The notes under the pieces: generated by a model
The model's input: the letters and a program-made list of their open reading frames with translations, nothing else
Told to the model about the DNA's origin: nothing
Databases searched by the model: none
Source of the DNA: Spiroplasma endosymbiont of Lasioglossum villosulum
GTDB taxonomy: Bacteria > Bacillota_I > Bacilli_A > Mycoplasmatales > VBWQ01
Length of the DNA: 64,000 nt
Direction: 5' to 3'
NCBI RefSeq assembly: GCF_964020195.1
Contig: NZ_OZ026539.1
Location: 686,299 to 750,298, forward strand
Translations under genes and position numbers: made by a program
Part shown: positions 2,258 through 25,039 of the stretch, piece by piece
How the letters are laid out: each line of letters starts with the position of its first letter
Position numbering within the stretch: the first letter of the stretch is position 1

Positions 2258-2275
2258 AATATTCACCACCTTTCT

Positions 2276-2398: not shown

Positions 2399-2402
2399 AA
2401 TA

Positions 2403-4100
2403 TTATTCCTGCAATTCTTCTAATTTTCATACATTACCATTTCTTGAACCTTTTACAGTAAAAATAGTAATCAATTTAGATTGATTAAGAGATAAAATTA
2501 TTATATTAGTACTATCATTATAAGTGTGCATTGGTACACTAATCGTTTTTTTATCAGTTATAAAAAATTCTAAAATATTATAAACTGGATTATATATACT
2601 TCAAGAATAATAAACTCTATAATGTTTATTCTCTTGAAAATCATAAGTAATTTGTCAATTACCTATTTTACTTTTTTCTCTTGTTCCTACTTCTTTTCAA
2701 TTTGAACGACTTGGACTTGGTTTTGGAGGAATATCTTTTAATTCAATATCTCAATTATTTTCTTCTATTTCATTAGTTTCTAAACTTTTTGAATTAATTT
2801 TTATAGGTTTATCTATATTAATTACACTTGGTGAATTAATATCTAATGTATTACTTTTAATTTTATAAATTTTATTATTTGTCTTAGGCTTATATATTTT
2901 AGTTCCTAGTTTATTTCCATCTAGATTAGTTACTATTCAAGAATTACCATCAAAATATGATAGTATTAATTCATCATTTTCAGGTTGGACACTTAAATGA
3001 GCTTTAATTTCATTAGTAGAATTTGAGTAATAACCTGCTGAATCAATAGCTACATTATGGGCTGTTGGTACTGCACCATAAAAGAAAAATACTCCTTTAA
3101 GTCCTTGACTGTTTGACATATTAGGTGACCAAAAAATTTGATAATATGTATTTCTTGTTAAAATCATTGATTTTTGTTCTTCTCATTGTGGATTATTTAA
3201 AAAATCTTGTGGTGTTACCAAATAAGAACTTACAGATATTACATTATCTTCTGTAAGATTAATACCATGGCCAGTAATTAATTTATTTTGTTTATTATTA
3301 GTTAAGGCTGTAATATTTTTCTGTTGTTTAGCAGAAAAATCACAAGTTGGTGCATGTGTATAATCACCAATTTGTGGATTATTTTGTAGTGCTTCGGGTG
3401 GTAATGTACCAATTTCATCAGGTCAATCTAAAATCATTGTTTCAGTTTCTTTATCATAATCTGTTGCAACATAACCTTTATTAATAAATTTACTAACAGG
3501 ACCTCTATATATTTCATTTTCATTATCATCAACTAAATCATCATATAATTTAATTTGTTTTGATAATGTAAATTCTTTTTGTTGTTCAATTAATTCATCA
3601 ACTTGATTTCTAGTATAAAATGCTTTTAAATCAATTTTTTCAACATCTATTTCATCATCATTATAATTTGATAATATTTGTTTTAATTCTGTTAGTCTTG
3701 CCCATATTTTCATTCTACTTGGTGCTAAATCTCATACATTAATTGTTGGAATACTACTTGCACTAAATTGACTACCATTATTAAACTGAATAGTAGCATC
3801 AACATTAAATTCAATCGGTGTACGATTGAAAACTCAATGTTCAGTGGTTACATATACCATATCTCTTAATGTTTCTTTAATTAATTCATCTTTGAAACTA
3901 TCAAAAGGAAATTTCGATAAAATAAAACCAAGATAAGCATTAATATCATTTTGAGCACGAATAGCAAAAGTTTTAAATCAATCATTAACATTAGGTCATG
4001 TTTGTATGTATTGCTGTGGTGTTTCTGTAATTTTTCCAGTTAATGGATATCAGTTATTATAATTTTCAAGACTGACACCAGTTCAAAGTTTATTAATCAT
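2403..4100 (-). CDS. Putative neck/tail or receptor-binding protein (565 aa)
   Basis: The first about 150 residues are helical and tryptophan-rich, then a charged helical segment (KIWARLTELKQILSNYNDD), then a long beta-rich and Pro/Ser-rich C-terminal half (residues 250-565). That layout resembles tail or adsorption proteins with an N-terminal attachment domain and a C-terminal binding domain. It uses both TGA and TGG for tryptophan. It follows the 571-aa gene by 6 bp, so it is co-transcribed. No family assigned. Confidence 0.5.
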
Positions 4101-4106
4101 ATTTTA

Positions 4107-5822
4107 TCATTCCTTAAAAAATGCTTGTTTATAATGATGAGTATGTTTTTTTGTTTTTTTATGTGTTATATGTTCAATTTCTTTTTGTATTTTATTTTTA
4201 CCTTTTTTTATTTTTTTCTTACTTTTTGTTACAACTTGACTATATGCAAACTTTTCTAAATGATGTAATAATCCAGTACCAAATAAAGTATTAACACTAA
4301 ATTTTAAACCAACATTTTTAAATGATTTGTTAATATTTTCAATAGGATTATTAATAACATTTACTACTTTATGATAAGTTCTAATAGTTCTAAATATTTC
4401 TCTATATACTTTAAAACTATCTCTAATTACTTGTTGCACCACTGGTGGAGCAAATGCTATTGCTTTTAATCATTTATTTTGATTAACTCCATAACCAATG
4501 TATCAACCACTATATCAACGATATCAATGGAATGGATGTATTTGAGTAACAAAAGTTTTTGCTTTAAGAATACTATCAACAACTGTAATTGGTTTATATT
4601 TAGGATTGCGATGATAAATAGTAATTGCACATTTATCTAATGACAAAGGTTGAATTTTACAACCCATAAATACTGGTGAATTTAATGGAATTAATTGTGC
4701 GTGTTTAATTGCTCTTTTTTCTGCACTAGTAAATAAATCAGTTGCTTTTTCTTTTAATTTCTGAATTTTTTCAAATACTTGTTTTTCTAACTTTTCAAAT
4801 TTTTCTTGTAATTTATATATACTTTCTCGTATTTTTTCAAAATATGGTGTATCTTTTCAAAATTTATTTAAACCTTTTTTTAAATAAAATCTAATATCAA
4901 AATATTTAAAAGTTTGATTTGCTTTTAAAACAAGTTGATGAATAACATTATTTTTAAAATTAAATTTAATAGCATTAGCACGAATTTTTTGTAAATCTAA
5001 AATTAAAGTTTTTCCATATCTATTTTCTGTATGTATTGTATGAACTAAATTTAATCAATCATGTTGATTCATTTTTAATACTTCTTTTAAATCAGTATTA
5101 AATTTTTTTAAAAAGTTATTTGCTTTTTCAATATCTTTAATTTTAAATTTAGGAGTTAATTGTGGACTTAATTTTATTAATGTATTTTGTAATAATAAGT
5201 GTTCCATTAATTTTTCTGTTTCTAGTTTTTGAAAATTATTCTTATATTGTCTTTCAGCAACATATCCTAAATCTCGTAATACTGTTTCACGATTAGGAGT
5301 AAAACTATAATTCATTAAATAACGTTTATTACCAATAATTTTATCTGTTAAAATTTCTTTTCCACTTACTTGACTAATAATTTCTTGTAAGTTTTTTGCT
5401 TCTTTAATACCAACTTGTTCTAATGTTTTAGTTTTTTGTGCTAACTTAATAAATTTAGTTGTACGATAACCACGACTAATTTTATTAAGTCCAGCAAATG
5501 CTGGTAATATATTAAAAAAAGTATTTAATGGTGTTAGATTTCCTTTTAAATAATCATAAACTTGATTAATAGTAAAATCAGTTAAAAATTCTACACCAAC
5601 AGCACTAATACTAGCAATTAAATCACTTGCACCTAATCCAAGGGCTACACTTTCACTTAATCCACCAGTAAAAGGAGCAAGTGCTACTGCTATAACTTGT
5701 ACACCAATCATTTCTAAAATTTCTCATCAAAAACTTTTATTTTCTTGTTGGTTACTTGTTCTAGTATGTTTTGGTTTATTTATGTTTAAAAGTATTGCTG
5801 TACTAGTTGTACCGATTGGCAT
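4107..5822 (-). CDS. Phage minor structural/ejection-type protein (571 aa)
   Basis: After a 37-residue start comes a Gly/Ala-rich hydrophobic region (about residues 38-100, VALAPFTGGLSESVALGLGA) like those in phage ejection proteins and in polymorphic-toxin leaders. A lysine-rich helical middle follows, then a tryptophan-rich segment (HPFHWYRWYSGWYIGYG, about residue 435), and a very basic Lys/His-rich tail. It begins 14 bp after the major capsid gene. A role as an internal membrane-penetrating protein is inference; a true toxin is less likely because it lies within the structural operon. The frame crosses many TGA tryptophan codons without any real stop. Confidence 0.5.
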
Positions 5823-5836
5823 AATATTAATTTCCT

Positions 5837-7018
5837 TTATTTAAGAGTTATTTTAATTGGATTTGTTGTTCCTTTATAATTTAAGTCATTAACATTAGCA
5901 GTAATGGTTATATATAAGTCACCTGCTTTTTGTTTTTGATTACTTACATTAGTTTTTCCTTGTGCATCACTAAAATATTTAATAGTTGGATTTGTTAAAT
6001 TAGGATTTAATGATTTAAGTTCATTAGTACTTTTTATTTGTGTATTTAATTCACTATTATTGTTATTAACATTTGCAGTAATATCAGTTGTTAAACTTGT
6101 AATTTTAGTTTTTAAATCATTTTTATCATTATTAACAATTGCACATAACATTCAGCGTGAAGTTGTTTCTTCATCTGTTATATAGGGTATTGATTCACCA
6201 GTTACTTCTCCACCAACTAAATATCTTCTTCCAACTTTACCATCAGCAATATCTTGAACATATACAACTGTATTTTGTAACATATATCTTTTCATTGCTC
6301 TTGGTGTTGCTAAAACAAAAGACATAATTTTAGTTTCATTATTATCAGTAAATGTCATATAATCATCCATTACAATTTGACATAGTACACCTTTGATGTA
6401 TAAATCATTTCCATTTAATCTTAATTGTTGAGCAATTTGATTATCAGTAATTAGACCTTTGTTATTGGCTAAATAAACAATAGTATCATAAAGATTATTA
6501 GTAATAAAAAAACGACAATTATTACTATTTCTTAGTTGAAATAAAGTATTTCAAGCATCTAACATTGATTTTAAATATCCTAATGGTGTTTTATCAGTAA
6601 TGTCTATTTTAGTTGCATATTTTGCAATTACATTTGTATCATTATTTGCTAAATAATCTGCTAAGTCATTAGCAACTTCATATTGCATTGTATTTAATAA
6701 ATTTTGTCCATTTTCAGCATTTAAATCAACATTAGCAATTATTTCACCCGCAACCGCTTCTTCTTTAATTTCTTTTAAAATTTTAACAGTTTCAGCATAA
6801 CTAACATCTAATCCTTTGCTTTTATCATTTCATTTTAATACTTTAATTTCTGAATTTTTTGGTTTTTTAACTATAAATTCAATTTTTGTTGAATTAACCA
6901 TTTCGATAGGAAAAAAACTTGCTCATGGTGAATTTGATTGTTTATAAAATTCTATAAACTCTGGTGCTTCTACTAATTTTTCGGTATTATCTAAATTTTT
7001 ATTGAATTGTATTGCCAT
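5837..7018 (-). CDS. Major capsid protein with C-terminal Ig-like extension (393 aa)
   Basis: It lies directly behind the scaffold gene and is the size of a HK97-fold coat protein. Residues about 1-290 hold the expected mix: an N-terminal segment MAIQFNKNLDNTEKLVEAP, a spine-helix-like stretch (TMQYEVANDLADYLANNDTN) and a P-domain-like region ending ATPRAMKRYMLQNTVVYVQD. The last about 100 residues look like an added beta-sandwich: the end DLYITITANVNDLNYKGTTN and a terminal beta strand resemble small Ig-like modules in Spiroplasma surface proteins. A decoration or adhesion role is inferred. Confidence 0.68.
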
Positions 7019-7036
7019 TTTTTGATTTCCTTTCTG

Positions 7037-7411
7037 TTATAAATTATTATTTTTTTTATAATCCAATAATGTACTTTTTATTGAATTTTGTTGATTTGTT
7101 ATTATTGTTTGTTGTTTACCACCTGTATTAATTATTTCTTTAAATACTGGTTGTTCTTTAATCATTTTTTTAATAGTTTCTTCAATTTTTGAATTTTCTA
7201 TATTACTTGTTGTAAATTTTAAATAATCATAAAATTCAGTTTTAACTTGATATTTTTTAAATATATTAATTATTTCTTTTTCTTTAATTTCTTGATTAAG
7301 TTTATTTAACTTATTTTCTGCTTCATTAACTTTATTTTCTATTTCTTGTTGAGCATTATTTTCAGTTAAAGGTTCAGTTGTTTGTTGAACATTATTTTCA
7401 TTTTCTAACAT
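7037..7411 (-). CDS. Phage scaffolding protein (124 aa)
   Basis: It is an acidic/glutamine-rich, strongly coiled-coil protein (residues 20-50, EIENKVNEAENKLNKLNQEI) ending in a Lys/Asn tail. It lies 18 bp before the capsid gene, the standard position of scaffold proteins that line the prohead during assembly. It starts with ATG 7411 behind a weak ribosome site. Confidence 0.65.
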   Translation of the reverse strand: MLENENNVQQTTEPLTENNAQQEIENKVNEAENKLNKLNQEIKEKEIINIFKKYQVKTEFYDYLKFTTSNIENSKIEETIKKMIKEQPVFKEIINTGGKQQTIITNQQNSIKSTLLDYKKNNNL

Positions 7412-7427
7412 TTACATCACCACTTTT

Positions 7428-7616
7428 TTATTTATTTTCTTTATTAATCTTTTCATTTAATTTTGCTAATTTTTTTTGATGTTTGATAATTTTGTTATTT
7501 GCTCTAACATGTTTTGGAGTTGTGATAAATCTTTTTAATAAAACAATAATTTCTCTGCAAATTAATGTTCCAACACTTGTTCCAATAATTATTAATTCAT
7601 GTAAAAATTCTTTCAT
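7428..7616 (-). CDS. Small membrane protein (62 aa)
   Basis: One predicted membrane helix at residues 5-27 (LHELIIIGTSVGTLICREII) is followed by a very basic cytoplasmic tail with lysine-rich helix. It lies just before the scaffold gene in the leftward operon. It resembles holins or small spike anchors in size and layout, but no family is recognised. Confidence 0.5.
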   Translation of the reverse strand: MKEFLHELIIIGTSVGTLICREIIVLLKRFITTPKHVRANNKIIKHQKKLAKLNEKINKENK

Positions 7617-7656
7617 CTCAATATTTTCCTTTCGATTATTTATTGTTTATTTTTGA

Positions 7657-7815
7657 TTATTCATCAAATTCACCTTTAATAATTCTTTCAATCATACATT
7701 TTGCATCTATTAAAAGATTTGCAATTAAACGTTCATTCAGTCGTATGTCTTCTAAATCTTTTTCATGTTGTTTTAATTTTTCATTGTAATATTCAAGTAA
7801 TTTTTCTTTATTCAT
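7657..7815 (-). CDS. Hypothetical phage protein (52 aa)
   Basis: A single charged amphipathic helix throughout (EYYNEKLKQHEKDLEDIR). It is supported by a strong ribosome site, AGGAGGTGAAT, before ATG 7815. It lies between the 274-aa gene and the 62-aa membrane gene. Function unknown. Confidence 0.55.
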   Translation of the reverse strand: MNKEKLLEYYNEKLKQHEKDLEDIRLNERLIANLLIDAKCMIERIIKGEFDE

Positions 7816-7831
7816 AAATTATTCACCTCCT

Positions 7832-8656
7832 TTATAAATTCATGTGATTATAATCTCAATTTAGTGAAGCATTATCATGATTTAATGGTACTTCGCTCAT
7901 ATTATCACTACCATATTGACTGGTTGTTTCACTATTAATTGAAAATCTATTATCATTAATTAATCTTGAAGTTTCATTATTAAATGATGTTTCTTGCATT
8001 TCTTGAATATGATTAGTTGTTTCCATAGGTAGTAAATTATGGATTATTTCACTTGCACCAGCAATTATGGTAGGTACTGCATAAGCATTATTAAAATCAT
8101 TATTAATACCCATAGCAACACCACTTGATATTAAACATCCACCAGTTGCCATATTACAAATCTTTCTTATTGTTTCAAATTTATTAGGTATTAACTCAGT
8201 TAATCCACTAATAAGATTTGATATACCATAAGCATTTAAACTAATATATGTATCTCAATCCATTAATGACTGATTTTCTTGTTTATTTAATAGTAATCAT
8301 GGAGGACCCTCAGTTGTAGTTGTAGTAGTTATTGGCATTGGTGTTGTTGGAATAATTGGAGTAATATTATTCTTTGTTCATTTACTATAATTTGCTAATC
8401 CAATTGTTCCTAATCCTAATGCTATTTTTTTAGAACTATTAATTAATTTAGTTTTAGTATTTGGTCTTTGATTTAAATTTCAAATATCTAAACCTAATTT
8501 TTTACCAAATAATAAACTATTAATTGAACCTAATACTGGATTTGCAATTACTTGACCATAATAAGCACTTGTACCAATCATTGCACAAATTGGACTTATT
8601 CCAGTTCTAATTAATTTAGTTAAAGTATAATTTGATTGTGTATTTTCATTTGGCAT
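7832..8656 (-). CDS. Hypothetical phage protein (274 aa) with hydrophobic segments and Thr linker
   Basis: Hydrophobic stretches at about residues 15-50 and 76-90 are followed by a Pro/Thr-rich linker (residues 99-119, seven consecutive threonines), then another hydrophobic region around residues 165-215 and a polar Asn/Ser-rich tail. The start codon overlaps the preceding stop (TAATG). The alternation suggests a virion or membrane-associated protein such as an ejection protein or spike. No family recognised. Confidence 0.55.
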
Positions 8657-8841
8657 TATTTAACTTCTCCGTTCATATTCAATAATTTTTCTAAAACATA
8701 ATGATTTTTATCAAATTCTTTAATAAGTCATTTTTTTGTTTCTGATGGATTTTTAGTAACAAGAATTAATCTTTCTATCATATAAATTAATTCTTGTTTA
8801 TCTGTTCTATCAAAAATTACTTTTAAAATTTCATCTAACAT
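8656..8841 (-). CDS. Hypothetical phage protein (61 aa)
   Basis: A small all-helical protein (MLDEILKVIFDRTDKQELIY). Its stop TAA shares one base with the ATG of the next gene, so the two are translationally coupled. Function unknown. Confidence 0.52.
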
Positions 8842-8844
8842 AAT

Positions 8845-9042
8845 TTATTCTCCTTTAATTTGTTTTAAATCATTTAATAGTTCTATAAATTTTTTCATCT
8901 CTTTTGAATGATAATCAATCATTAAATAATTATCATTTCAATTAAACATTACACATGTTTCACTTGTACAAAATTCAACATTATCAATAAAAAATAATTT
9001 TTCGTCTACATTTCATTTAATTAAAAATTCGCGCTTAGTCAT
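8845..9042 (-). CDS. Hypothetical phage protein (65 aa)
   Basis: It begins MTKREFLIKWNVDEKLFF and contains two cysteines in CTSETC and an amphipathic C-terminal helix. It overlaps nothing but sits 3 bp before the next start in the leftward operon. Function unknown. Confidence 0.52.
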
Positions 9043-9047
9043 GGTTA

Positions 9048-9290
9048 TTATCCTTTAATTTCTAATTTTTTAACTGTTACTTTAATTCAACCTTGATAAA
9101 CATCATTATCACCAACTATTAATGCAACATTACTTTCTGGGTCAGAAACAATTATGTGTTTTGATTTAACATTTGGATATTGTCTTAAAATAATTGCTCT
9201 AATATCATTACTTGTATGAATTGCTTTGGGAAATGGTGATAATATTTCAATTTCATCTTTATTTTCAAACAAAGTAGGTAATATTATCAT
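9048..9290 (-). CDS. Hypothetical phage protein (80 aa)
   Basis: It shows alternating predicted strands and helices (PTLFENKDEIEILSPFPKAI and SKHIIVSDPESNVALIVGDN), and an in-frame TGA tryptophan near the C terminus extends it to TAA at 9048. It shares one base with the stop of the gene upstream. Function unknown. Confidence 0.52.
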
Positions 9291-9451
9291 TAATTATTCT
9301 CCTTATTTTCAATTTGATTAGCAATTTCACTTAATATTTTTAATACTTTATATTCATTTTTTAATTCTTTAATAATAAATAATAAAAATATTATTAGTGT
9401 TATGCTGGTTATTAATATTGGTACTATTAATAAAATTTCTCATAATATCAT
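9290..9451 (-). CDS. Small single-span membrane protein (53 aa)
   Basis: Residues 1-28 form a strongly hydrophobic helix (MILWEILLIVPILITSITLI and on), followed by a charged helix (KELKNEYKVLKILSEIANQI). The layout is like a small holin/antiholin or a spanin-like inner membrane anchor. Its TAA overlaps the ATG of the following gene. Confidence 0.52.
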
Positions 9452-9454
9452 TTT

Positions 9455-9748
9455 TTACTCTTTTCATTTTTTAAATCATTTAACATTAATTGAACAAAAT
9501 GCACGATTTTTTTGAATATTTAAAGTATTAAAGATTTCACCAGTTACTATAATTTCATCGTTTTTGTTTAATAAAATACAGCGTCTATAAAGTTTTGGTT
9601 TATTAAAAATTAAAGTAACATAGTTTAATCCATTTCATTGACCACGAACACTATAATATAATTCTTTATTACCTTTTTCGTAATATTTTGCTTCAATAGT
9701 GTTACTAAGTTTTACTGTTAATTTGACATAATTTGTTTTATCTTTCAT
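9455..9748 (-). CDS. SSB-like OB-fold protein (97 aa)
   Basis: The strand-rich pattern NYVKLTVKLSNTIEAKYYE, then a GQWNG turn, NYVTLIFNKP, and LNKNDEIIVTGEIFNTLNI resembles the beta-barrel of single-stranded DNA-binding proteins, in which the KNDEIIVTGE segment aligns with the usual KGDxVxVxGxL motif. It would bind ssDNA during phage replication or recombination. It precedes nothing but small genes and follows the RuvC-like gene by 2 bp. The acidic C-terminal tip that recruits partners in bacterial SSB is missing. Confidence 0.55.
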
Positions 9749-9750
9749 TT

Positions 9751-10215
9751 TTATAATTTCCTTAAATAATTATCAAAAATTAATATTTTTTTATGATTTT
9801 TTAAATAATATTGAATATGTTTATAAGCATCTTGTTCATGTTTTGTTAATTTTATATTTCCTTTATAATTTTCTATTTTAGTTTTATTTTTTGGTTCACT
9901 TTCTAGATAATCTCAATTTATAACATCTTGTACTAATACCATTAATGCACCAATAATTTTAGGGGTTGCTAATGGATTAGTTAATAATTGTTTTGAACTT
10001 AAAAAGAAATTTTCTACAATAACTAATATTTTTTTATCAATAAATTTTTCTTTAATTAATTGAAATTTTTCTTTATAAATATTTTTAGTTCATAAAACAG
10101 TTAATGTATTGAATGTTTCATTAAAAATAATATTATTAGTTTCATTTGAATATATAACAATTCCATTATTACCAATACCAGCAGGGTCAATTCCAATAAT
10201 TAAGTCATATTGCAT
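9751..10215 (-). CDS. RuvC-like Holliday junction resolvase (154 aa)
   Basis: An RNase-H-fold endonuclease that should cut four-way junctions, for example when resolving concatemers before packaging. The family motifs are visible in order: IIGIDPAG with D10, ILVIVENFF with E68, and KHEQDAYKH with H126 and D129, the usual acidic tetrad layout of RuvC/YqgF-like resolvases. The length (154 aa) is close to small phage and bacterial RuvC. It is co-transcribed with the SSB-like gene, which supports a recombination/replication module. Confidence 0.72.
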
Positions 10216-10217
10216 TA

Positions 10218-10568
10218 TTAATCAAATTCTTTGGATTTTATTTTATTAATTAATAATTCAATAATATCAACTGAACCTTTTAATTGATTTTGATAAAATG
10301 TTTCTTTTTCTTTTTTGTATTGTTCTATATAATGACCTAAAAATATATTTAATGAACAAATTAAATTTTTCTTATATTCATTAATAACTTCTTTTTTAAA
10401 ATCTTTTTTTAATTTTTCTTTATATTTATTAATAATTTCTTTTTTAAAATCTTCTCTTAATTTTTCTATATTATTTAAATGTTCTTCTGTTATTTCTTTA
10501 CTACGTTTTTTCTTATATTCATTAATAATTTCTTGGTCTTTAACAGCAAATGGTTTTTCTTTATTCAT
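10218..10568 (-). CDS. Coiled-coil hypothetical phage protein (116 aa)
   Basis: Lys/Glu-rich, almost entirely helical, with an internal repeat: EIINEYKKKR, EIINKYKEKL and EVINEYKKNL recur at about 35-residue spacing, each preceded by DFKKE or similar. The start overlaps the stop of the zinc-ribbon gene by one base. It may be a DNA- or RNA-binding helper; function unknown. Confidence 0.55.
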   Translation of the reverse strand: MNKEKPFAVKDQEIINEYKKKRSKEITEEHLNNIEKLREDFKKEIINKYKEKLKKDFKKEVINEYKKNLICSLNIFLGHYIEQYKKEKETFYQNQLKGSVDIIELLINKIKSKEFD

Positions 10569-10732
10569 TATTTATACCCCCTACTTAACTTAACATTTAA
10601 GATACAGTCATAACAAATTGCTTTACCGTTTTTGTCTCTTAAAAAGTTTTTTCTTGTTTTTATATCATTAGTATTAAAGAATAAATAATCTAATTTATGT
10701 TGTTTACATGTTCAACAAAAATACTTTTTCAT
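10568..10732 (-). CDS. Zinc-ribbon protein (54 aa)
   Basis: Two Cys pairs, CWTC (residues 6-9) and CYDC (residues 41-44), separated by about 31 residues with RDKNGKAI between, form a zinc ribbon of the kind seen in small phage DNA-binding or HNH-associated proteins. No HNH catalytic residues are present. The start has AAGGAAAT upstream. Confidence 0.6.
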
Positions 10733-10824
10733 TATGAGTTGAAATTTCCTTATAAGAAGTAACTAAATAATTAATTGGTAAATCATCATGTTTATATGGA
10801 TTATTTATTTGCTAAATTGTAAAG

Positions 10825-11875
10825 GTAAGTGCAACTAAATTATTTTTCTATCCAAATATTCGATTGGTGAAAGATAATTTAGTATTTTTCTTGGTCTTTG
10901 GTTTAAAGACAATATAAATTTATGAACTTCATTTTTATTAGTTTTTGAAAAAATAAATTTTTTAGGAAATTTTTCTCTAATTAAACCATTAGTATTTTCA
11001 TTAGTACCTCTTTGTCAAGGTGAATATGGATTGGCAAAATAAATTTTTATATCTAAATTTTTTTCAAGTTGTTGTCAATTTGAAAATTCTTTGCCACGAT
11101 CAAAAGTAATAGTTTTAACAATGTTTTTAGGAAGAATTGATAAATAATAACTAACATTTTTATTAATAACTTTAGTAGTTCTGTTTTTAACTAATATTGC
11201 TAAAGTAAATCGTGATACTCTTTCAACTAAAGTTATTAAACATGATTTGCTTTTACCTCGTGATGATACTATAGTATCTCCTTCTCAATGACCAAGTGTT
11301 ATACGATCATTAACATTTATATCTCGTTCTTTAATTGATTTACCATTAAACTTGCCACGATTTTCTTTAGATTTTCGTTTTTTACCTTTTCTTCTTAAAT
11401 TTTTACTAGTAACTTTATCAAGCATTCCAAAATAAATTCAAGTATAAATTGTTTTAAAACTAATAACTCACTCTTTATGAAAATTTTTAATTCTGCCATA
11501 AATTTGTTCAGGTGATCAACCTAATAGTAATTTTTGTTGTACATATTTTACTAAATTCTTATTTTTAAACTTATGAAAACTAATATGTGATTGTTTTCGA
11601 TTTTCAGCTTTATTTTGTGCAATTAATGAAAAATAATGATTATTATCTTTATTTCTATTAATTTCTCGAATAATAGTACTAATACTTCGATTAAGATTTT
11701 TAGCTATTTCACTAATTTTAAATTTAAATTTCAATTGATTCTCAATATAAATCCTTTCATCTATGCCAAGATGTTTATAACTCATATAAAAACTCCTTAC
11801 TTTTTTCTAAACTAAATTTAGCATTATGAAATTTTTATATGAGAATTTTTTGCAATTTTATTTACTTGCACTTAC
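10825..11875. mobile_element. IS30-family insertion sequence, unit A
   Basis: This 1051-bp element has terminal inverted repeats beginning GTAAGTGCAACTAAAT at the left end and GTAAGTGCAAGTAAAT (complement) at the right end, and is flanked by a 3-bp direct repeat AAG (10822-10824 and 11876-11878), as expected for IS30-type insertion. It interrupts only the last codons of a phage frame. Confidence 0.85.
10835..11785 (-). CDS. IS30-family transposase (316 aa)
   Basis: Complete DDE transposase. The N-terminal helix-turn-helix reads MSYKHLGIDERIYIENQLK and continues into a SISTIIREINRN segment. The core shows GHWEGDTIV, TFDRGKEFSNW and the acidic third position in SPWQRGTNENTNGLIREKFP, followed by the usual RPRKILNYLSPIEYL ending. 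These are the signatures of the IS30 family. The stop lies 10 bp inside the left inverted repeat. The same element type often rides on Spiroplasma viruses. Confidence 0.92.
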
Positions 11876-11878
11876 AAG

Positions 11879-11984
11879 TATAACTCAGCATTTTAAAATC
11901 TTTTCTGTTTTCTTCTCACGTAATGTTATATTTAAAACAAGGATTAGTAATTTTAGTTTTGTTATCTGTTATTTCACCGATAAA
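11879..11984 (-). other. In-frame continuation after the 106-aa gene, cut by the IS
   Basis: After the TAA at 11985 the same frame stays open for 36 codons (FIGEITDNKTKITNPCFKYN and on) up to the IS. Removing the IS and one AAG, it would end six codons later at a TAA. No ATG lies at its 5' end. Either a nonsense codon has split a roughly 150-residue gene, or this is a small gene with a non-standard start. Confidence 0.4.
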
Positions 11985-12305
11985 TTAACTATTATGCTGT
12001 TCATAAAATTTTAATGGTTCAAGTTTTATATCATTAAGATAATATTCTTTTGGAGCGGTTGGTTTATTAACAGTTATTTTTTGGTCTTTAATATATGGTT
12101 CTAATAATTTTATTAATTCATTACCACTTAATTCTCTTTTAATATTTTCTAAATTAAAAACTCAATATGTATATTTATCATCAGCAATAAAACTATTATT
12201 TTTAACCATTCATTTTGGACATTGTAATTTATATTCACCATAATCAATAAGAATAGATTGTGGTCTATCTTTAACAATTTGTTCTTTTTTAAATTCTATT
12301 TGCAT
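11985..12305 (-). CDS. Hypothetical phage protein, first gene of the leftward operon (106 aa)
   Basis: Starts at ATG 12305 behind AAGGATTATT. It contains a CPKWMV segment and a helical middle (NLENIKRELSGNELIKLLEP), and ends QKITVNKPTAPKEYYLNDIK and on. It is the promoter-proximal gene, so an early or regulatory role is possible. No family is recognised. Confidence 0.55.
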
Positions 12306-12320
12306 AATAATCCTTTCCTA

Positions 12321-12354
12321 ATATGTTCTGTTGCTTCTAGCATAAAGAACATAT
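12321..12354. promoter_or_regulatory. Inverted repeat in the leader of the phage operon
   Basis: ATATGTTCT (12321-12329) and AGAACATAT (12346-12354) form a perfect 9-bp inverted repeat with a 16-bp spacer, 16 bp upstream of the first start codon. It could be a repressor operator or an RNA hairpin in the 5' leader. Confidence 0.5.
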
Positions 12355-12564
12355 ATTTTGATTTTTAGATTATTAATAATACTACTATTCGTTTTATTCA
12401 TTCCAGCAATTCTGGGCTCAAAAATAAATTGTGAAATTTTAAAAAGAAATCGAGGCATTCGATTCAATATTTATTTAATTTATGTTTAATAAATTAATAT
12501 TTTAATTGAACCGGCACCGCTCAATTTTTTTTACAAGTTTGAAATTTATTTTCTCGCCCAAAAA

Positions 12565-12905
12565 AATTTTTCAAAAAAAATAAAAAATAAAACCAACACT
12601 TGCTCACTGGGGAGTGGCAAGGTTGGTTAAATAAAGAATAGAATTAATACAATAGGTCCCTACAACAGGTCTATATATACTAGTTTCCAATTCGCTCCCA
12701 CCCCAAGAATTACCATTAATGGTTAGTATATTTTATTAGGTATCACTCCACTTTTTATTTATCCATGCAAGTCCACATGTTCTAGCTACTATTTTTAACA
12801 ACTGTGTTGTAGTTCACTTTTTTAGTTCCCTAACACGTGTTGATAATAGCGTTAAAGAGGGTTATTAATTATTAACTTTCTCCTACTTGGTCACTGCGTG
12901 TAGTA
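12565..12905 (-). ncRNA. Candidate structured phage RNA with intrinsic terminator, unit A
   Basis: About 340 bp contain no usable frame, have clearly higher GC and many hairpins, and on the minus strand end in a strong terminator: AACCAAC/GTTGGTT with inner TTGC/GCAA and CACT/AGTG (12591-12628), followed by long T runs. Internal stems include AACCATTAATGGTT and AACTAC..GTTGTT-type pairs. It is not RNase P, tmRNA or SRP RNA as far as I can see. The 5' end is not defined. Confidence 0.45.
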
Positions 12906-12955
12906 GATATTTAAAGGATGTTAATAATAAAAATTTTAAAATTTTACAATTACAC

Positions 12956-12990
12956 AAAAAAAGACAAGATTTTTATTCTCGTCTTTTGTC
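12956..12990. terminator. Bidirectional terminator near the right phage end
   Basis: AAAAGACAAGA (to 12969) pairs with TCTCGTCTTTT (12977-12987), with A and T runs on either side. It insulates the phage from flanking transcription in both directions. Confidence 0.65.
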
Positions 12991-13051
12991 ATTTATTTTT
13001 AATTCAAGGGTAAAAAAAGAAAGGAGCTATTTTTAAAACTTTTTAGTTACC

Positions 13052-13071
13052 GACATCTTCGACACGCTCCC
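13052..13071. repeat. Right terminal inverted repeat of unit A
   Basis: The 20 bases GACATCTTCGACACGCTCCC match the reverse complement of 13077-13096 at about 15 of 20 positions, with a perfect outer 8 bp (ACGCTCCC). Only 5 bp (AAAAG, 13072-13076) separate it from the next unit's left repeat. Confidence 0.75.
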
Positions 13072-13076
13072 AAAAG

Positions 13077-13096
13077 GGGAGCGTACCGATGTTGTC
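13077..13096. repeat. Left terminal inverted repeat of unit B
   Basis: GGGAGCGTACCGATGTTGTC is the first sequence of unit B. It is the imperfect mirror of the right repeats at 13052-13071 and 30664-30683. The transposase gene starts its 3' end about 200 bp inside. Confidence 0.75.
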
Positions 13097-13231
13097 AATA
13101 ATATTCAAATTTGTCTTAAAATTATAAAGTTAGACGAGAATAATTTTGACTTCAATATGCAATTGTATGTTAATCTTAACACTTGAAAAATATTAGTCAA
13201 CAATAATACTTACTTTTATAACACAAAAATT

Positions 13232-13254
13232 CTTATTAAAGCATCTTTAATAAG
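13232..13254. terminator. Terminator after the phage transposase gene
   Basis: CTTATTAAAG..CTTTAATAAG form a perfect stem-loop about 40 bp downstream of the transposase stop on the minus strand, with T-rich sequence on both sides. Confidence 0.6.
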
Positions 13255-13295
13255 TTTTATTTTATTTTTGGTTTTTTAAAATCTTTAATTTTAAT

Positions 13296-14456
13296 TTATA
13301 ATAACTGGATGGCAGTATTTATTTGATAGCATTTAAAATTAACCATTTTTGTATACATATCAATGTTATAAGTTCTATCACCAATCATATGCTTTAAAAT
13401 TTGTTTAATATTAGTTTCAGTAAAGCAACCAATATTTTCAACTAGTGCTTGGTTTAATACACCATCTTTTGCATTAATAAAATAACCAACTTTTAATTTT
13501 TTATATTGCAAAGTTAATGATTGTAAAAAATCAATTAATTCATAATATTGACCTTTTTCAAATAAAGTTATTGCATTTTGATAGTGTAATTTAGCAATTT
13601 TATTTTTTCTTCTTCCAGCCATTATACCAAGAAATAAAACATGAAAAGCATGGAATTTATCTAAAATAAATTTAGCATTTAAAATTGTAGCAGTTTTTCT
13701 AATTCATTTTGCACTATCACCACAAACTATTAAATTTGCTTGGTCAAAGTTTTCAAAATATAAATTACCATATTTTTGAATAAATTTAGCTGTTTTTTCT
13801 GCACCAATTTCTGTTTTTGATACTCTTATTTTACATACAGCTCTTTTATTAATTAATTTTCCATTTTTCTTTTTACCAGTACAAAATACTAATAATCTCA
13901 TAGAATATTTTTTACAATTTTTAGTATTGTGTTTTTCATTAAACTTAAATTTTCTATGCCCATCATCAATATTTATATATAAAGTTTGATTTGGTTGCAA
14001 TAGTATTTTAGGGATATTTGCTTTTGGTAATTCAAATTTTTGATATGTTCTACAAACTGTACTATTACTTATTAAATCTTCAATAAAAGTATCACAAACA
14101 TCACGATATTTTTTATCATCAGCAAAATATTTTAAAATTTGTTTAATAACATCTGGTGCTAATTTACTATACTTTTTAACACCAAGATAGTTATCTAGCA
14201 ATGAAACAAATTCCTTTTTTTGTGTTTTTGGGTTATAATGTATACAAATACGTCGTTTATAATTTAATAAACCTTTTTTTGTTTTTAATTTTCTTTTTCT
14301 AAATCTATATGATTTATATTCAGATTTATCACATATACTTCATAAATAATCATCTATTTTTGCAAATAATTCTTCTGTTTGTTGTAAATTTAATTCATCT
14401 TGATTAAAATAGTGTTTGTCTCAATCAAAATGATTAGGAAATGGTAATTTTATCAT
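13296..14456 (-). CDS. UPF0236/ISLre2-type DDE transposase (386 aa), candidate phage integrase
   Basis: The frame joins across TGA codons from ATG 14456 (AAGGAAAATTAAAA upstream) to TAA at 13296. The pattern is that of UPF0236 (Pfam PF06782), the ISLre2 transposase family: an N-terminal NYKRRICIHYNPKTQKKE strand region, LLDNYLGVKKYSKLAPDV, then the catalytic-core strands TLYINIDDG (first Asp), LIVCGDSAKWIRKTA (second Asp) and FILDKFHAFHV. The length is slightly below the roughly 400-450 usual. It is divergent from the terminase (63-bp gap) and close to a terminal inverted repeat. I infer that it integrates the phage by transposition. Confidence 0.82.
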
Positions 14457-14519
14457 TTTTAATTTTCCTTTCTTTTAAATAATTTAATTTTAACTTATAT
14501 ATGTTAATAAGGAGTAAAT

Positions 14520-16226
14520 ATGGCTTTTATCACTAGTTATGCACAATTAAATAAAAAATATAATCTTAATTTTAGTGATAATAATTATGGTTTTAGTTGA
14601 GATATTTTTAAACAATTTGTTGGTGATGAATGAGCAGAATATTTTACTACTAATTGTTTTTATCGTTTTATTCCAACTGCACGGGGAACAAGAAAAACTT
14701 GAAATTGTTTAGCATTTGATTTATTTATATGTTGTAATTTTAGTGATAGTAGTGTTCAAGAAGTAAGAAGATATGAAAATACTCATAGTGAAACTACAAT
14801 TGGTGCTTTAATGAATGTTTGTCAAGTTTTATTAGATAAATATAATATTAATTTATTACCTAATAATCCACATGGTATTAAATGAAAAATAACTAAGGAT
14901 GGTGGATGTATTATTTTTCCTAATAATCAACAAATTGACTTTATTGGTTATGCTAATGGTAATAAAATTTTTGGAAAAGAAGCAGGTGGGTCAAGTTTTT
15001 TAGGTTCAAGAACAGATGAAATTATTATGGCAGAAGAAAAAGAAACACTAACAGAAAAACAATTAACATATCGATATGAACGTTTACAAAACTCTATGTT
15101 TAGAAGTAATCGTATTAAAGTATCAAAAGAACCTATTAAAGAATGAAGTTGAACGTTTATTGATAAAAATATATATAGTCCTAATTTTGGAAAAAAGATT
15201 ACTCGCTATTTTTATAAAAGTTTTTTTATTACTTTTACATGTAATCCTTATGATAAATACCATCCATTTTATTTAAAATACTGTACGCCATTTTTACCAT
15301 TAAATGATAAAGTGATGGAAAATCTTAAAAAAGTTGGCAAAATTTATTATGAAAATCAAGATATGTTTAGTGGTTTAGGTTTATTTGTTTTAAGATTTAC
15401 TATTCAACCGTTTTGAAATAAATTACCAGATATTCAAAAAAGAACATTATTAGAAATGAAAAAAAGTAATCCTGATGAATTTAATACTGTTTTTTATGGT
15501 TTTGAATTTTTAGATAGTGATGCAACAATTTTTCCATTTCAAAAAACTGTAAAATATTGACAATCATATGACTTAAAACAATTTTATAATCAAGAAAAAG
15601 AAATGTATAAATTTGATTTTTATAGTGTTGGTATTGATTGAGCTACGGGACCAAAAGACCATACTGTATTTATGGTAGTTGGTTTTAAAGAATATAATAA
15701 TACTGGTTATTATGATGCTTATATTATTTGTGAATTAGTAGTTACTCCAAATGATTTTATTAATGAAAATGAAAAAATTAATGCTTATGTTAATGAAATT
15801 TTAGGATTAATGGATAATTTTGAAAATTTTGAACAAGCAATTTATTTTTATGATGATAAAGCACGAACTGCCATGGATTGATTAAATCAAAAATTAATAG
15901 ATGAACAAAATACAATTTTAATAACACAAACTGCTATTAAACATGCTTCAAATTTAAATCAAGAAGCCGGATTAACTAATAGAGTAGTTTGAATGAGAAA
16001 TATTATGAGTTATGGAAACTTTTATGCAAATAAAAATGATTTACCAAAAACTACTCAATGTTTAGAAGAATTACGTTATGATGAAACAAAAACTAACATT
16101 CCTGACAGAAATATGTATCAAGACCCATATGATGCATTATTTTATGCACTATATCCATATAAAAATGTAATTAGGGGTAAAAATAATGCTACTGTGAAAA
16201 AAAGTATCTTCACATTTGCTATATAA
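14520..16226 (+). CDS. Phage terminase large subunit (568 aa)
   Basis: This is the motor that packages DNA into proheads and cuts it. The N-terminal ATPase has PTARGTRKTW (residues 52-61) in place of a canonical Walker A (R where G/S is usual) and DEIIMAEEKE (166-175) as Walker B with catalytic Glu. The C-terminal nuclease shows the RNase-H-like acidic residues: GIDWA with D373, YFYDDK with D445/D446, and DPYDALFYAL with D535/D538. The layout fits Terminase_3-type proteins. It reads opposite to the structural operon and has AAGGAG before ATG. No small terminase subunit is recognised. Confidence 0.82.
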
Positions 16227-16261
16227 TAAATAATTTCAATATTATTAATAGTATAGGTCTC

Positions 16262-16300
16262 ACAAAATAAACGCTTTTAATTTAGGCGTTATTTTGTATT
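16262..16300 (+). terminator. Terminator downstream of the terminase gene
   Basis: ACAAAATAAACGC and GCGTTATTTTGT (16286-16297) form a long stem with one bulge and a TTTAAATT-rich loop, 36 bp after the terminase stop. Confidence 0.6.
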
Positions 16301-16376
16301 TAAAAGCATACTTGTAAAAATAATCAAAAATAGTACAATTTATAAGTAAAATCAAGGAAAAAAGGAGTAATTTAAT

Positions 16377-16658
16377 ATGAAAACATGAATAAAAACAAAT
16401 TTAAGTAAAATAACATTAGTATTAGCATTAACTGGTGCTACAACTGGAACAATTGGATTAATCATGGGGGGGGTGCTTACCCATAATATGGAAAATTCAT
16501 TTTTAAAACCAAATGGTGAAAGAGTATATGGTGATACTACAATTTGATGAAATAAATGATATAGCCCTGATAAAACTAGATTGTATTTTTCAAAAATTAA
16601 GCATCATGATGAAGATATAAAATGAGATGGTACTTACACAAATAATTATTTTGAATAA
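16377..16658 (+). CDS. Small secreted/membrane phage protein with poly-G tract (93 aa)
   Basis: Starts at ATG 16377 behind AAAGGAG. Residues 1-30 form a signal peptide or membrane anchor (KITLVLALTGATTGTIGLIM). The next codons lie in a run of eight G bases (16466-16473), rare in such AT-rich DNA. The mature part is short and tryptophan-rich (DTTIWWNKWYSPDK). It ends one base before the stop of the convergent 675-aa gene. It may be a superinfection-exclusion or surface lipoprotein-like moron; no cysteine lipobox is present. Confidence 0.6.
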
Positions 16659-18686
16659 TTAAATTTCTAAGTTAATATAAGAAATATTTTCATTATATTT
16701 ATCGAATAAATTAATATTTTTTAAATCAATTTCTTGTTTATCTGTTATTAAAATAAAATCATAATTTTCAGCACCAAATATTCCACTAATTTCAATCCGA
16801 TTTAGATTATTAATCGGATTTTCGATTTGTAATTCAAATTCACTATTATTATCAATTTGTGATATTTCTTTATAAAATTCCAATTTAGAAAATAATTGAG
16901 ATTTATTTGAACCATATAAATTTAAAGCATTTTCAATTTTATTATTACTAATGATTAATTTTGTAAAATATTTTCCATATTCACCATTTGCTAATGTTAA
17001 ATCTGATGGAATTAATGAAGGTATATTATTAGTTTCTAGTTCATTGGTTATAGATAATCAATTAAATTGATTATCGTCTAATTTAAATAATTCATTTTGA
17101 CTAATATCATTATTTCTTAGTTTAATGTTATTCATATCTGTAAAATCAAAATACTCAGATTTTAATATAACTTTGGTATCTTTAAATCTTCAAATATCTT
17201 TACCAGTAGGTTTTATTGGACTCGATTTTAATTCAAAATAATAGGGTAACAAAATTTTATTATCATCATTTAAACCTTTATTAATTGACATAATTGAATA
17301 AATATTATTTGATAACATAATTACTAGTTTCTTAAAAATATGAACTTGTGGTAAATTTATATAATTTGGATAATCCAATTTTCATTGTTTAAATAAATTA
17401 GTTATTACTTCTTCTGGTTTTTGTCCTTCAAATTTTGCTCTTAACTTTGCAATTTCATTGTCTGGAACACCTTTATCATCATATGTTGCACCATCAAAAT
17501 TCCTATTATAATTATATGTATAACTTAGCATATCTAATAATAATTGTTGTAAACTATCATTAGTTGGTGCATCTTTTATTTCAATTTCAATATCATCAAA
17601 TCTATTATTGGTTGCAACATATTGATAAAATTGACTTTCACCAGCAAAATTTCAAACTTCTTTATCTTTTAATTCTTTTTGTTTTTTTAATGGTCACTTA
17701 CCATCTCAAACAGTACCCATTTCATATCCTAATCAAGCATGTGTCACTCTTGCGTTTTTAATAACTTCTCTTCTTGTTTCAGTTCCACTACTAATTTTAA
17801 TCAAATCTAAAACTGATTTTTCTTGGCCTATAAATTCTTTTGCTAAATTTCAAGGTAATATTTGTTCACTAAATCATTGTTGTAATATTCTAACTTTTGG
17901 CTGAGTTTCAATAGGCATTGATAATAGCGGAAATGCTATCTTATCTTTAACAAATAACTTTGGGTATACTTCCATATTGTCAATTTCACCAAGTACCTTT
18001 ATATTACCAAAAATCATGCTTCTAGGGGCTTTAATTTTTAAACCAATAACTTTTGTATCTTTATCTAATGGTTTTTGTAATTTAATAATGATTGGATAAC
18101 CATCTCTTGTTTTAAAATCTTTAATTTTAATAATAGTTATACTTTTAGTACTTCTTGTTTTTGGATTTTGATAAGGTTGTGAATAATTATTAATGATATA
18201 TAAATTATCAATATTATTTTCAGTTAATGGTTCATTAATAGATACAGCATATAACTTAAATTGATTTAATAAATTTATTTCTTGAAATATTAAATTTTTA
18301 ATATCAGTCATACTATATTCAATTGTATTGTCATTAATATTAGTACTTGCTCTTTGATTTAATTGCATAGTAAAGTCTGATGTTTCAACAGCAATAGTTT
18401 TTAATACTTTATCAATATCAATAAAACCAATTTTAATAGTATTTGCTGAAAATCTTAAACTATTATTTTCATTATTTTTAAATAAACGCTCAATTTCATA
18501 AATATATATGGTTCTTTTTTTAAATTCATCATATGCTCTATTAATATCTGGGTCACTAGTAGCGCGCATCATATTAGTAAAGTCATAAGGAATATTATCA
18601 ATTAAATAATCATTTTCTACTTCTGCTTGATTAAGTTTAGTTTGTTTCTGTGGAAACTTCGTTTGTGGTTTGTTGTTGTTTTCCAT
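16659..18686 (-). CDS. Phage structural protein (675 aa), unit B, complete
   Basis: Last gene of the leftward operon. An Asn/Gln/Lys-rich start is followed by about 650 residues of mixed secondary structure; the part after residue 270 (ILQQWFSEQILPWNLAKEFI) opens with a TGA tryptophan. The C-terminal third is beta-rich with many N-x-x-N turns (NNLNRIEISGIFGAENYDFI). It may be a neck, tail or spike component, as its place after the portal suggests. No family is recognised, and it ends in an exact stop-to-stop abutment with the rightward gene. Confidence 0.62.
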
Positions 18687-19869
18687 TGTTCTCTCCTATT
18701 AATTGGTTATTTTCTGGATTAAATAATTTTAACTTAACTGTTAAATTATTAATTTCTTGTTCATCATTAATATTAAATGTTTTACTATTTAATAAGTCTT
18801 TATCTAAACGTACTAATATTTGAATAAATTTAAGAATATCAATATTAAATTGTCATAATTTTTGTTCAATATAATTAATAGTTGAAATATTTACAGCTGT
18901 ACTTTCTGGAACTGATTGTTGTGCTGATTTCTTTTGACTTGGTATATGAATACCACAACGTTTAAATATTTCATTAACATTTCAATCGTATATATCAGTT
19001 AAATTTTTACCTTTAAAATTACTATTTGTCATATTAATATTTTCATTTTGTTCATTATTATCTCCACCACTTTTAAATATGTAATTTTTAGTAACCAAAG
19101 TTCTTACTGCGTCTTCTATTAAAGATTGAACATTGCCATAAGTTTGACTAAATATAAATTTAGGTGAATTTAAAATGGTATCTAAAACAATTTGTTCATA
19201 AATAACATCTAATGCTTTAATTTTATCCATTACTTTATTACAATCTGCTAGCTCATTTGCTTTATTTCTCATAATTGCTATTGGTATATAGTTAATATTT
19301 AGTGTTTGTTCTTGTGCTAAATTAGGATTATTAATGAATGATTTAAAATCTAATGGAAATTGTTTTTTATTATCACTAATACTATAAATTGCACGATTAA
19401 TTGTTACTTGTTCATTATTTAATGTATAAATTTCAAATAATCTTACCATTTGTGCATTTTGTTCATAACTATCATAAAAAATAGTACATTGAATTAATTT
19501 ACCAGTAATATCATAAACTCTTTGTTGTATATCAACGACTTGAAAATATAAATCATCATTAGCAATAAAAATTAAATAACCACTAATTCCTAATTTACTT
19601 AATTTAAAAATAGAATTTCAATTTTTTCTATAAAATTCTTGTTGAATTAAATATTGTTTAATAGTTTCATTATTTATTTCTAATGGAGCATTATATAAAT
19701 TAGCATTATTTTCTGCTACAAAATCAGTAAAATAAGTTTCATGGTTAAAATCATTAAAACCAAAATAACTTAAAATAGAAGCATGTGTACTTTTACCTTT
19801 TAAAAAAGTTAATTTAGTTTTTTCTTCATTATTAGTACTTTTATCTTTTCTTAAAAATCTACCTAACAT
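18637..19869 (-). CDS. Phage portal protein, unit B copy
   Basis: Identical in frame to 1025-2257 (410 aa). Its 3' end overlaps the full 675-aa gene by 50 bp, so both termini of the pair can be seen here. Confidence 0.62.
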
Positions 19870-19887
19870 AATATTCACCACCTTTCT

Positions 19888-20010
19888 TTAAAATATTTGA
19901 TTAATTTTTAATACAATTTTTACTATAATAAATATAATTAAACCAGCAACTGCAGAAGATAATAAAACTCCAATTAAACCTAAAATAATTTTTATTATTT
20001 TAAAAAACAT
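19888..20010 (-). CDS. Small membrane protein (40 aa), unit B copy
   Basis: Same single-helix protein as 2276-2398; ends 18 bp before the portal start. Confidence 0.5.
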   Translation of the reverse strand: MFFKIIKIILGLIGVLLSSAVAGLIIFIIVKIVLKINQIF

Positions 20011-20014
20011 AATA

Positions 20015-21712
20015 TTATTCCTGCAATTCTTCTAATTTTCATACATTACCATTTCTTGAACCTTTTACAGTAAAAATAGTAATCAATTTAGATTGATTAA
20101 GAGATAAAATTATTATATTAGTACTATCATTATAAGTGTGCATTGGTACACTAATCGTTTTTTTATCAGTTATAAAAAATTCTAAAATATTATAAACTGG
20201 ATTATATATACTTCAAGAATAATAAACTCTATAATGTTTATTCTCTTGAAAATCATAAGTAATTTGTCAATTACCTATTTTACTTTTTTCTCTTGTTCCT
20301 ACTTCTTTTCAATTTGAACGACTTGGACTTGGTTTTGGAGGAATATCTTTTAATTCAATATCTCAATTATTTTCTTCTATTTCATTAGTTTCTAAACTTT
20401 TTGAATTAATTTTTATAGGTTTATCTATATTAATTACACTTGGTGAATTAATATCTAATGTATTACTTTTAATTTTATAAATTTTATTATTTGTCTTAGG
20501 CTTATATATTTTAGTTCCTAGTTTATTTCCATCTAGATTAGTTACTATTCAAGAATTACCATCAAAATATGATAGTATTAATTCATCATTTTCAGGTTGG
20601 ACACTTAAATGAGCTTTAATTTCATTAGTAGAATTTGAGTAATAACCTGCTGAATCAATAGCTACATTATGGGCTGTTGGTACTGCACCATAAAAGAAAA
20701 ATACTCCTTTAAGTCCTTGACTGTTTGACATATTAGGTGACCAAAAAATTTGATAATATGTATTTCTTGTTAAAATCATTGATTTTTGTTCTTCTCATTG
20801 TGGATTATTTAAAAAATCTTGTGGTGTTACCAAATAAGAACTTACAGATATTACATTATCTTCTGTAAGATTAATACCATGGCCAGTAATTAATTTATTT
20901 TGTTTATTATTAGTTAAGGCTGTAATATTTTTCTGTTGTTTAGCAGAAAAATCACAAGTTGGTGCATGTGTATAATCACCAATTTGTGGATTATTTTGTA
21001 GTGCTTCGGGTGGTAATGTACCAATTTCATCAGGTCAATCTAAAATCATTGTTTCAGTTTCTTTATCATAATCTGTTGCAACATAACCTTTATTAATAAA
21101 TTTACTAACAGGACCTCTATATATTTCATTTTCATTATCATCAACTAAATCATCATATAATTTAATTTGTTTTGATAATGTAAATTCTTTTTGTTGTTCA
21201 ATTAATTCATCAACTTGATTTCTAGTATAAAATGCTTTTAAATCAATTTTTTCAACATCTATTTCATCATCATTATAATTTGATAATATTTGTTTTAATT
21301 CTGTTAGTCTTGCCCATATTTTCATTCTACTTGGTGCTAAATCTCATACATTAATTGTTGGAATACTACTTGCACTAAATTGACTACCATTATTAAACTG
21401 AATAGTAGCATCAACATTAAATTCAATCGGTGTACGATTGAAAACTCAATGTTCAGTGGTTACATATACCATATCTCTTAATGTTTCTTTAATTAATTCA
21501 TCTTTGAAACTATCAAAAGGAAATTTCGATAAAATAAAACCAAGATAAGCATTAATATCATTTTGAGCACGAATAGCAAAAGTTTTAAATCAATCATTAA
21601 CATTAGGTCATGTTTGTATGTATTGCTGTGGTGTTTCTGTAATTTTTCCAGTTAATGGATATCAGTTATTATAATTTTCAAGACTGACACCAGTTCAAAG
21701 TTTATTAATCAT
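20015..21712 (-). CDS. Putative neck/tail or receptor-binding protein, unit B copy
   Basis: Second copy of the 565-aa protein at 2403-4100, with the same start (ATG 21712) and no changed reading frame. Confidence 0.5.
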
Positions 21713-21718
21713 ATTTTA

Positions 21719-23434
21719 TCATTCCTTAAAAAATGCTTGTTTATAATGATGAGTATGTTTTTTTGTTTTTTTATGTGTTATATGTTCAATTTCTTTTTGT
21801 ATTTTATTTTTACCTTTTTTTATTTTTTTCTTACTTTTTGTTACAACTTGACTATATGCAAACTTTTCTAAATGATGTAATAATCCAGTACCAAATAAAG
21901 TATTAACACTAAATTTTAAACCAACATTTTTAAATGATTTGTTAATATTTTCAATAGGATTATTAATAACATTTACTACTTTATGATAAGTTCTAATAGT
22001 TCTAAATATTTCTCTATATACTTTAAAACTATCTCTAATTACTTGTTGCACCACTGGTGGAGCAAATGCTATTGCTTTTAATCATTTATTTTGATTAACT
22101 CCATAACCAATGTATCAACCACTATATCAACGATATCAATGGAATGGATGTATTTGAGTAACAAAAGTTTTTGCTTTAAGAATACTATCAACAACTGTAA
22201 TTGGTTTATATTTAGGATTGCGATGATAAATAGTAATTGCACATTTATCTAATGACAAAGGTTGAATTTTACAACCCATAAATACTGGTGAATTTAATGG
22301 AATTAATTGTGCGTGTTTAATTGCTCTTTTTTCTGCACTAGTAAATAAATCAGTTGCTTTTTCTTTTAATTTCTGAATTTTTTCAAATACTTGTTTTTCT
22401 AACTTTTCAAATTTTTCTTGTAATTTATATATACTTTCTCGTATTTTTTCAAAATATGGTGTATCTTTTCAAAATTTATTTAAACCTTTTTTTAAATAAA
22501 ATCTAATATCAAAATATTTAAAAGTTTGATTTGCTTTTAAAACAAGTTGATGAATAACATTATTTTTAAAATTAAATTTAATAGCATTAGCACGAATTTT
22601 TTGTAAATCTAAAATTAAAGTTTTTCCATATCTATTTTCTGTATGTATTGTATGAACTAAATTTAATCAATCATGTTGATTCATTTTTAATACTTCTTTT
22701 AAATCAGTATTAAATTTTTTTAAAAAGTTATTTGCTTTTTCAATATCTTTAATTTTAAATTTAGGAGTTAATTGTGGACTTAATTTTATTAATGTATTTT
22801 GTAATAATAAGTGTTCCATTAATTTTTCTGTTTCTAGTTTTTGAAAATTATTCTTATATTGTCTTTCAGCAACATATCCTAAATCTCGTAATACTGTTTC
22901 ACGATTAGGAGTAAAACTATAATTCATTAAATAACGTTTATTACCAATAATTTTATCTGTTAAAATTTCTTTTCCACTTACTTGACTAATAATTTCTTGT
23001 AAGTTTTTTGCTTCTTTAATACCAACTTGTTCTAATGTTTTAGTTTTTTGTGCTAACTTAATAAATTTAGTTGTACGATAACCACGACTAATTTTATTAA
23101 GTCCAGCAAATGCTGGTAATATATTAAAAAAAGTATTTAATGGTGTTAGATTTCCTTTTAAATAATCATAAACTTGATTAATAGTAAAATCAGTTAAAAA
23201 TTCTACACCAACAGCACTAATACTAGCAATTAAATCACTTGCACCTAATCCAAGGGCTACACTTTCACTTAATCCACCAGTAAAAGGAGCAAGTGCTACT
23301 GCTATAACTTGTACACCAATCATTTCTAAAATTTCTCATCAAAAACTTTTATTTTCTTGTTGGTTACTTGTTCTAGTATGTTTTGGTTTATTTATGTTTA
23401 AAAGTATTGCTGTACTAGTTGTACCGATTGGCAT
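21719..23434 (-). CDS. Minor structural/ejection-type protein (571 aa), unit B copy
   Basis: Second copy of 4107-5822. All TGA codons and both flanking spacers (6 and 14 bp) are conserved. Confidence 0.5.
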
Positions 23435-23448
23435 AATATTAATTTCCT

Positions 23449-24630: not shown

Positions 24631-24648
24631 TTTTTGATTTCCTTTCTG

Positions 24649-25023: not shown

Positions 25024-25039
25024 TTACATCACCACTTTT

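Follow-up and report, generated by a model that had tools for sequence, protein, structure and literature searches.

The two prophage-like units that lie in tandem in a Spiroplasma endosymbiont of Lasioglossum villosulum (GCF_964020195.1, NZ_OZ026539.1) are joined by a 5-bp spacer that repeats the host sequence at one outer end of the pair. This junction, known from the assembled sequence, is very probably the copy-out product of the element's own Mutator-like DDE transposase. We analyzed a window of 64,000 nt (positions 686299-750298) from a genome that consists of a single contig of 1,512,716 bp and in whose genes tryptophan is encoded by UGA.

The units are 17,607 bp long, arranged head to tail and 100% identical to each other. 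Unit A (+ strand) starts at genome position 681763, 4,536 bp ahead of the window, and its last 13,071 bp lie inside (window positions 1..13071). It ends with the right terminal inverted repeat, R (GACATCTTCGACACGCTCCC, 13052..13071, +), which is common to unit B and to other copies in this genome. The spacer AAAAG (13072..13076, +) separates this repeat from the left terminal inverted repeat, L, of unit B (GGGAGCGTACCGATGTTGTC, 13077..13096, +). Unit B is a complete element (13077..30683, +) whose R (30664..30683, +) is identical to that of unit A; L and R match at 16 of 20 positions. It is followed by the right host flank AAAAGTTC (30684..30691, +), the first 5 bp of which equal the spacer. 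The earlier note had described an abutted R/L junction at 13052-13096 with a spacer equal to the flank after unit B; its coordinates are exact, and AAAAG is present at 30684. An unrelated site at the left chromosomal end, which that note had named as the outcome contrary to its reading, is absent. This end lies outside the window and reads ...CCAAAAAGTTC in the flank and GGGAGCG from the start of unit A. The same AAAAGTTC is found there, abutting unit A, and an 8-bp target duplication therefore brackets the whole pair, in the order AAAAGTTC, L to R, AAAAG, L to R, AAAAGTTC. The junction also folds into a hairpin, as had been noticed (-14.4 kcal/mol, z -4.6), although this adds no separate evidence because a hairpin is expected wherever two inverted repeats abut.

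Searching the genome with the junction sequence revealed a second pair (1261520-1296684), in which identical units of 17,580 bp are separated by AAAGT and the right flank is AAAGTTTA. Arrays 3 and 4 of the same genome were found via equal-scoring transposase pairs on one strand; in array 3 (near 84997-115629) the spacer is TATAT and matches the left flank, and in array 4 (near 893754-924994) it is AGTAA and matches the right flank. Array 5 belongs to another, more distant Spiroplasma lineage (G022, 170943-193297) and has the spacer GAAAA, equal to its right flank. Across all five pairs, which represent four end types, the spacer is exactly 5 bp long and repeats the 5 bp that adjoin one outer end, on the right in four pairs and on the left in one (TATAT). 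In this sequence a 5-mer equals one of two flanks by chance with a frequency of ~0.8%, and the value for five of five pairs is ~3e-11; a chance match was thus rejected. Every pair consists of exactly two units that are 100% identical over 11-17.6 kb; separate copies of one element differ by several percent. No tandem pairs were found in other ixodetis-group genomes with end-type patterns that would miss other end types, and the relatives in which no pair was detected carry as many or more transposase copies.

An exact target duplication is kept in only one of the five pairs, that of the window; in the other four it was lost or never present. Array 4 appears to be nested in a related element on the opposite strand, itself largely deleted (G000:C1:893483-926591), and may have no target duplication for that reason. 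Around single Spiroplasma copies, exact duplications are 8 bp (TAAAATTT, AAAGAATT) or 9 bp (TATGAAATG, TAAATTTAA, TTAATAATA) long. Other single copies have near-match duplications or none, and roughly half of those examined are without an exact one. Later rearrangement among many copies would most simply account for the missing duplications at single copies and at the four pairs. In citri-group genomes (G015, G032, G037), neighboring R and L ends are separated by 8 or 9 bp, and in at least two cases the spacer is the whole target duplication (ATACATTAT in G032, CTTAAAATG in G037); the 5-bp spacer class is therefore a different product. One of the R-L neighbors from G032 is a short element (~340 bp) with an internal deletion.

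The gene for a DDE transposase of 386 aa (13296..14456, -) lies 219 bp inside L. Profile matches place the protein in UPF0236 (Pfam, 3.4e-13) and in the Mbov_0401 ICE-transposase family (NCBIfam NF046004, mycoplasma-ICE; 1.1e-77, 262 bits against a curated cut-off of 162 bits, the match spanning model positions 2-368 of 369). The NF046004 cut-off is also exceeded by the transposases of phage MaM-2019a and of arrays 3, 4 and 5. D164, D247 and E347 are invariant among five relatives and are predicted by analogy to be the catalytic DDE residues. Judged by its sequence, the transposase is a member of the mycoplasma-ICE (p-MULT5, Mutator-like) DDE family. Terminal inverted repeats in this family are 18-39 bp long. 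The element shares the family features, with an 8-bp duplication at the pair, duplications of 8 or 9 bp at five single copies, and inverted repeats of ~20 bp. A Mu-like transposable phage was rejected, as the duplication is 8 bp rather than 5 and the transposase is of the UPF0236/Mbov_0401 rather than the Mu type.

Among the cargo genes is one for a putative terminase large subunit of 568 aa (14520..16226, +), in which the motifs PTARxTxKT, TCNP, GIDWA and DPYDAxFYALY were read. The protein itself has no significant database match, and a relative of it gave a weak PHROG terminase match (E 0.0076). Searching phage records and IMG/VR for TerL gave nothing, and a profile search of solved structures gave no meaningful match. 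The closest named relatives of the gene are in the Spiroplasma of Danaus chrysippus and in S. ixodetis SHM, which suggests that the host belongs to the ixodetis group of Spiroplasma. Conserved element proteins of 675 aa (16659..18686, -), 414 aa (18637..19881, -; portal-like by position only) and 393 aa (23449..24630, -; candidate capsid by position only) are also encoded. No family match was obtained for the portal and capsid candidates, and the predicted models of the terminase-like and 393-aa proteins were unusable (pLDDT 37 and 30). A RuvC-like resolvase candidate of 154 aa (27363..27827, -) resembles the Holliday junction resolvase of MaM-2019a (42% identity over 55 aa, E 3e-5). An IS30-family transposase (28447..29397, -) marks an insertion sequence nested in unit B; the identical copy in unit A (window 10835-11785) matches NCBIfam IS30 at 1e-85, and the insertion is missing from several other element copies. 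Ten element proteins scanned against Pfam and NCBIfam included no conjugation family (TraE/TraG-like). Just past the array, window positions 35310-36230 hold a protein gene built of 75-bp repeats in seven register copies.

From these sequence comparisons the cargo looks like that of a dsDNA prophage akin to MaM-2019a, and we call it prophage-like, short of a proven phage. MaM-2019a (OL689226, OL689227) was assembled from phage-like particle DNA of S. poulsonii, and such contigs are discussed in PMC12453411. At ~19 kb it encodes, beside the terminase end, a transposase that belongs to the same NCBIfam family, and it has a similar RuvC-like protein and a similar overall layout; however, the transposases are only 27% identical, and terminase, portal and capsid are not recognizably similar by BLAST or hhalign. 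The gene set of the window element recurs, mostly shared, in arrays 3 and 4 without the terminase-like gene. Arrays 3 and 4 have different terminal repeats and a different transposase (42-46% identity to that of the window element), and they may be defective or dependent on a helper element. The 11.2-kb unit of array 5 encodes an ICE-type transposase and small proteins that match phage families of unknown function. These small proteins are plectrovirus-like by eye, so that a transposase of this kind may also serve a filamentous phage.

We infer copy-out from the transposase family and from the published behavior of such enzymes, which form circles or dimers with flank-derived spacers. The anatomy of the pair, its 8-bp duplication, the flank-derived 5-bp spacer of five independent pairs and the family of the transposase are the established parts on which the reading builds. 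A single insertion of the element would first have duplicated the 8 bp (AAAAGTTC). The transposase would later have nicked the L end on one strand, and the L 3' end would have been joined to flanking DNA at a point 5 bp beyond R, which yields a circle within the same copy or a tandem dimer on a sister copy. Replication would turn the bridge into double-stranded R-AAAAG-L. In this inferred strand-transfer chemistry, AAAAG would mark the R side as the recipient. Whether dimer or circle, the R-5bp-L sequence should be present in the cells, and its presence would mean that the element was recently active.

The p-MULT family generates 8-9-bp duplications and circles with a spacer of a few bp from one flank, either flank being usable (PMC3942029), and 8-bp repeats with a coupling sequence of 6 bp are described for a mycoplasma ICE (PMC6813540). 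The mycoplasma ICEs (ICEA, ICEHo) have in common with the Spiroplasma element the transposase family, a transposase gene placed close to one terminal repeat, duplications of 8 bp and a flank-derived circle spacer. In contrast, the Spiroplasma element has a 5-bp rather than a 6-bp spacer, no recognized conjugation gene and putative phage genes, and it appears in the assembled chromosome as tandem pairs. Within the IS256 family, ISCth4 makes 8-bp A/T-rich duplications and, in vitro, 6-8-bp spacers from either flank (PMC7780238). A/T-rich 8-bp duplications, a flank-derived spacer, either end as donor, and both tandem dimers and circles are thus common ground with IS256/ISCth4 (PMC7780238), although those are small insertion sequences of a different Mutator-like branch. 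Three observations weigh against the copy-out reading: spacers of 6-10 bp are reported for related elements, longer than the 5 bp seen here; four of the five pairs have no exact target duplication; and other ixodetis-group genomes yielded no tandem pair with the end types searched.

Copy-out could have led to the assembled pair by more than one route. We rated three routes to the dimer against one another, and all are compatible with the junction sequence. Nearly an even chance is given to a chromosome that carries one copy, accompanied by free R-AAAAG-L circles that were sequenced with it, so that the assembler looped once and produced a false dimer. Each of the five pairs has exactly two units at full identity where separate copies are several percent apart, and four of the pairs come from one assembly, none having been found in relatives with equal or greater numbers of transposase copies; yet recent genuine dimers would give an identical picture. 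Quite plausible too, at a slightly lower rating, is a real chromosomal dimer made by the transposase when an end of one sister copy attacks beside the opposite end of the other, with neither a circle nor homologous recombination. Tandem dimers are reported for IS256 (PMC7780238), and IS30 is reported to form minicircles or tandem dimers. This direct route predicts an intact outer duplication together with a 5-bp spacer, as in the window pair, but such dimers are known as reactive intermediates, and it would be unusual for four to persist in a single genome.

The earlier note had proposed that a circle excised from this copy re-entered by homologous recombination. Its view of the spacer as derived from the same flank, and of the junction as a circle or tandem-junction signature, stands; homologous recombination is unneeded and not favored. 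Re-entry yields the same sequence, including a spacer equal to the flank, and it is the least supported of the three and rather improbable, because the host recA (G000:C1:976321-977103) is split by two frameshifts and because such transposases can form tandem dimers directly. No RecT/ERF-like gene was recognized in the element. Among other genomes, G022 and G032 likewise have a broken recA, and none was found in S. ixodetis SHM, yet the gene is intact in the relatives G001 and G004, and the host frameshifts could be sequence errors. Far less likely still are unequal crossing-over between duplications and a second insertion into the same target. R-L neighbors with a full-duplication spacer do exist in the citri group, as in G032, but both events predict the full 8-bp spacer AAAAGTTC or extra bases past the second R; 5 bp and nothing extra were seen, and the 5-bp spacer of all five identical pairs contradicts them. 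Several other candidates were rejected. The spacer is too short to be a target-site duplication (5 bp against 8 bp), a second insertion overlapping the tip of R would leave a CCC repeat that is absent past unit B, and insertion of a ready-made dimer circle would leave a spacer that mismatches the local flank. A fusion promoter at the junction was also rejected; L carries an outward TTGACA, but there is no -10 box, and a promoter scan gave no excess.

Returning to copy-out by the element's own transposase, this kind of junction is already known; neither the use of such junctions by these elements nor a uniform 5-bp rule was found described in the literature searched. The rule that the spacer equals 5 bp of flank is checkable in any long-read dataset, where it could find active elements and flag false tandem prophages in assemblies. 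In Spiroplasma, insect symbionts with prophage-rich genomes, it also allows the movement of large phage-like elements to be tested at the sequence level, and the elements are linked to the transposase family responsible for moving mycoplasma ICEs. More speculatively, and in our judgment somewhat unlikely, a family of Spiroplasma dsDNA phages may live as Mutator-type transposons, with the R-5bp-L circles or dimers made by the ICE-type transposase serving both as transposition intermediate and as substrate for phage replication or packaging. For vespertilioviruses (SpV1-like plectroviruses), the encapsidated genome has been described as a transposition intermediate of circular form (PMC8295915). 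These are likewise Spiroplasma phages with a transposase, but they are filamentous ssDNA phages of 4.5-8.3 kb, whereas the window element carries a terminase-like gene and is 17.6 kb long. If the proposal is true, the element would be the terminase-phage counterpart of what vespertilioviruses are described as doing.
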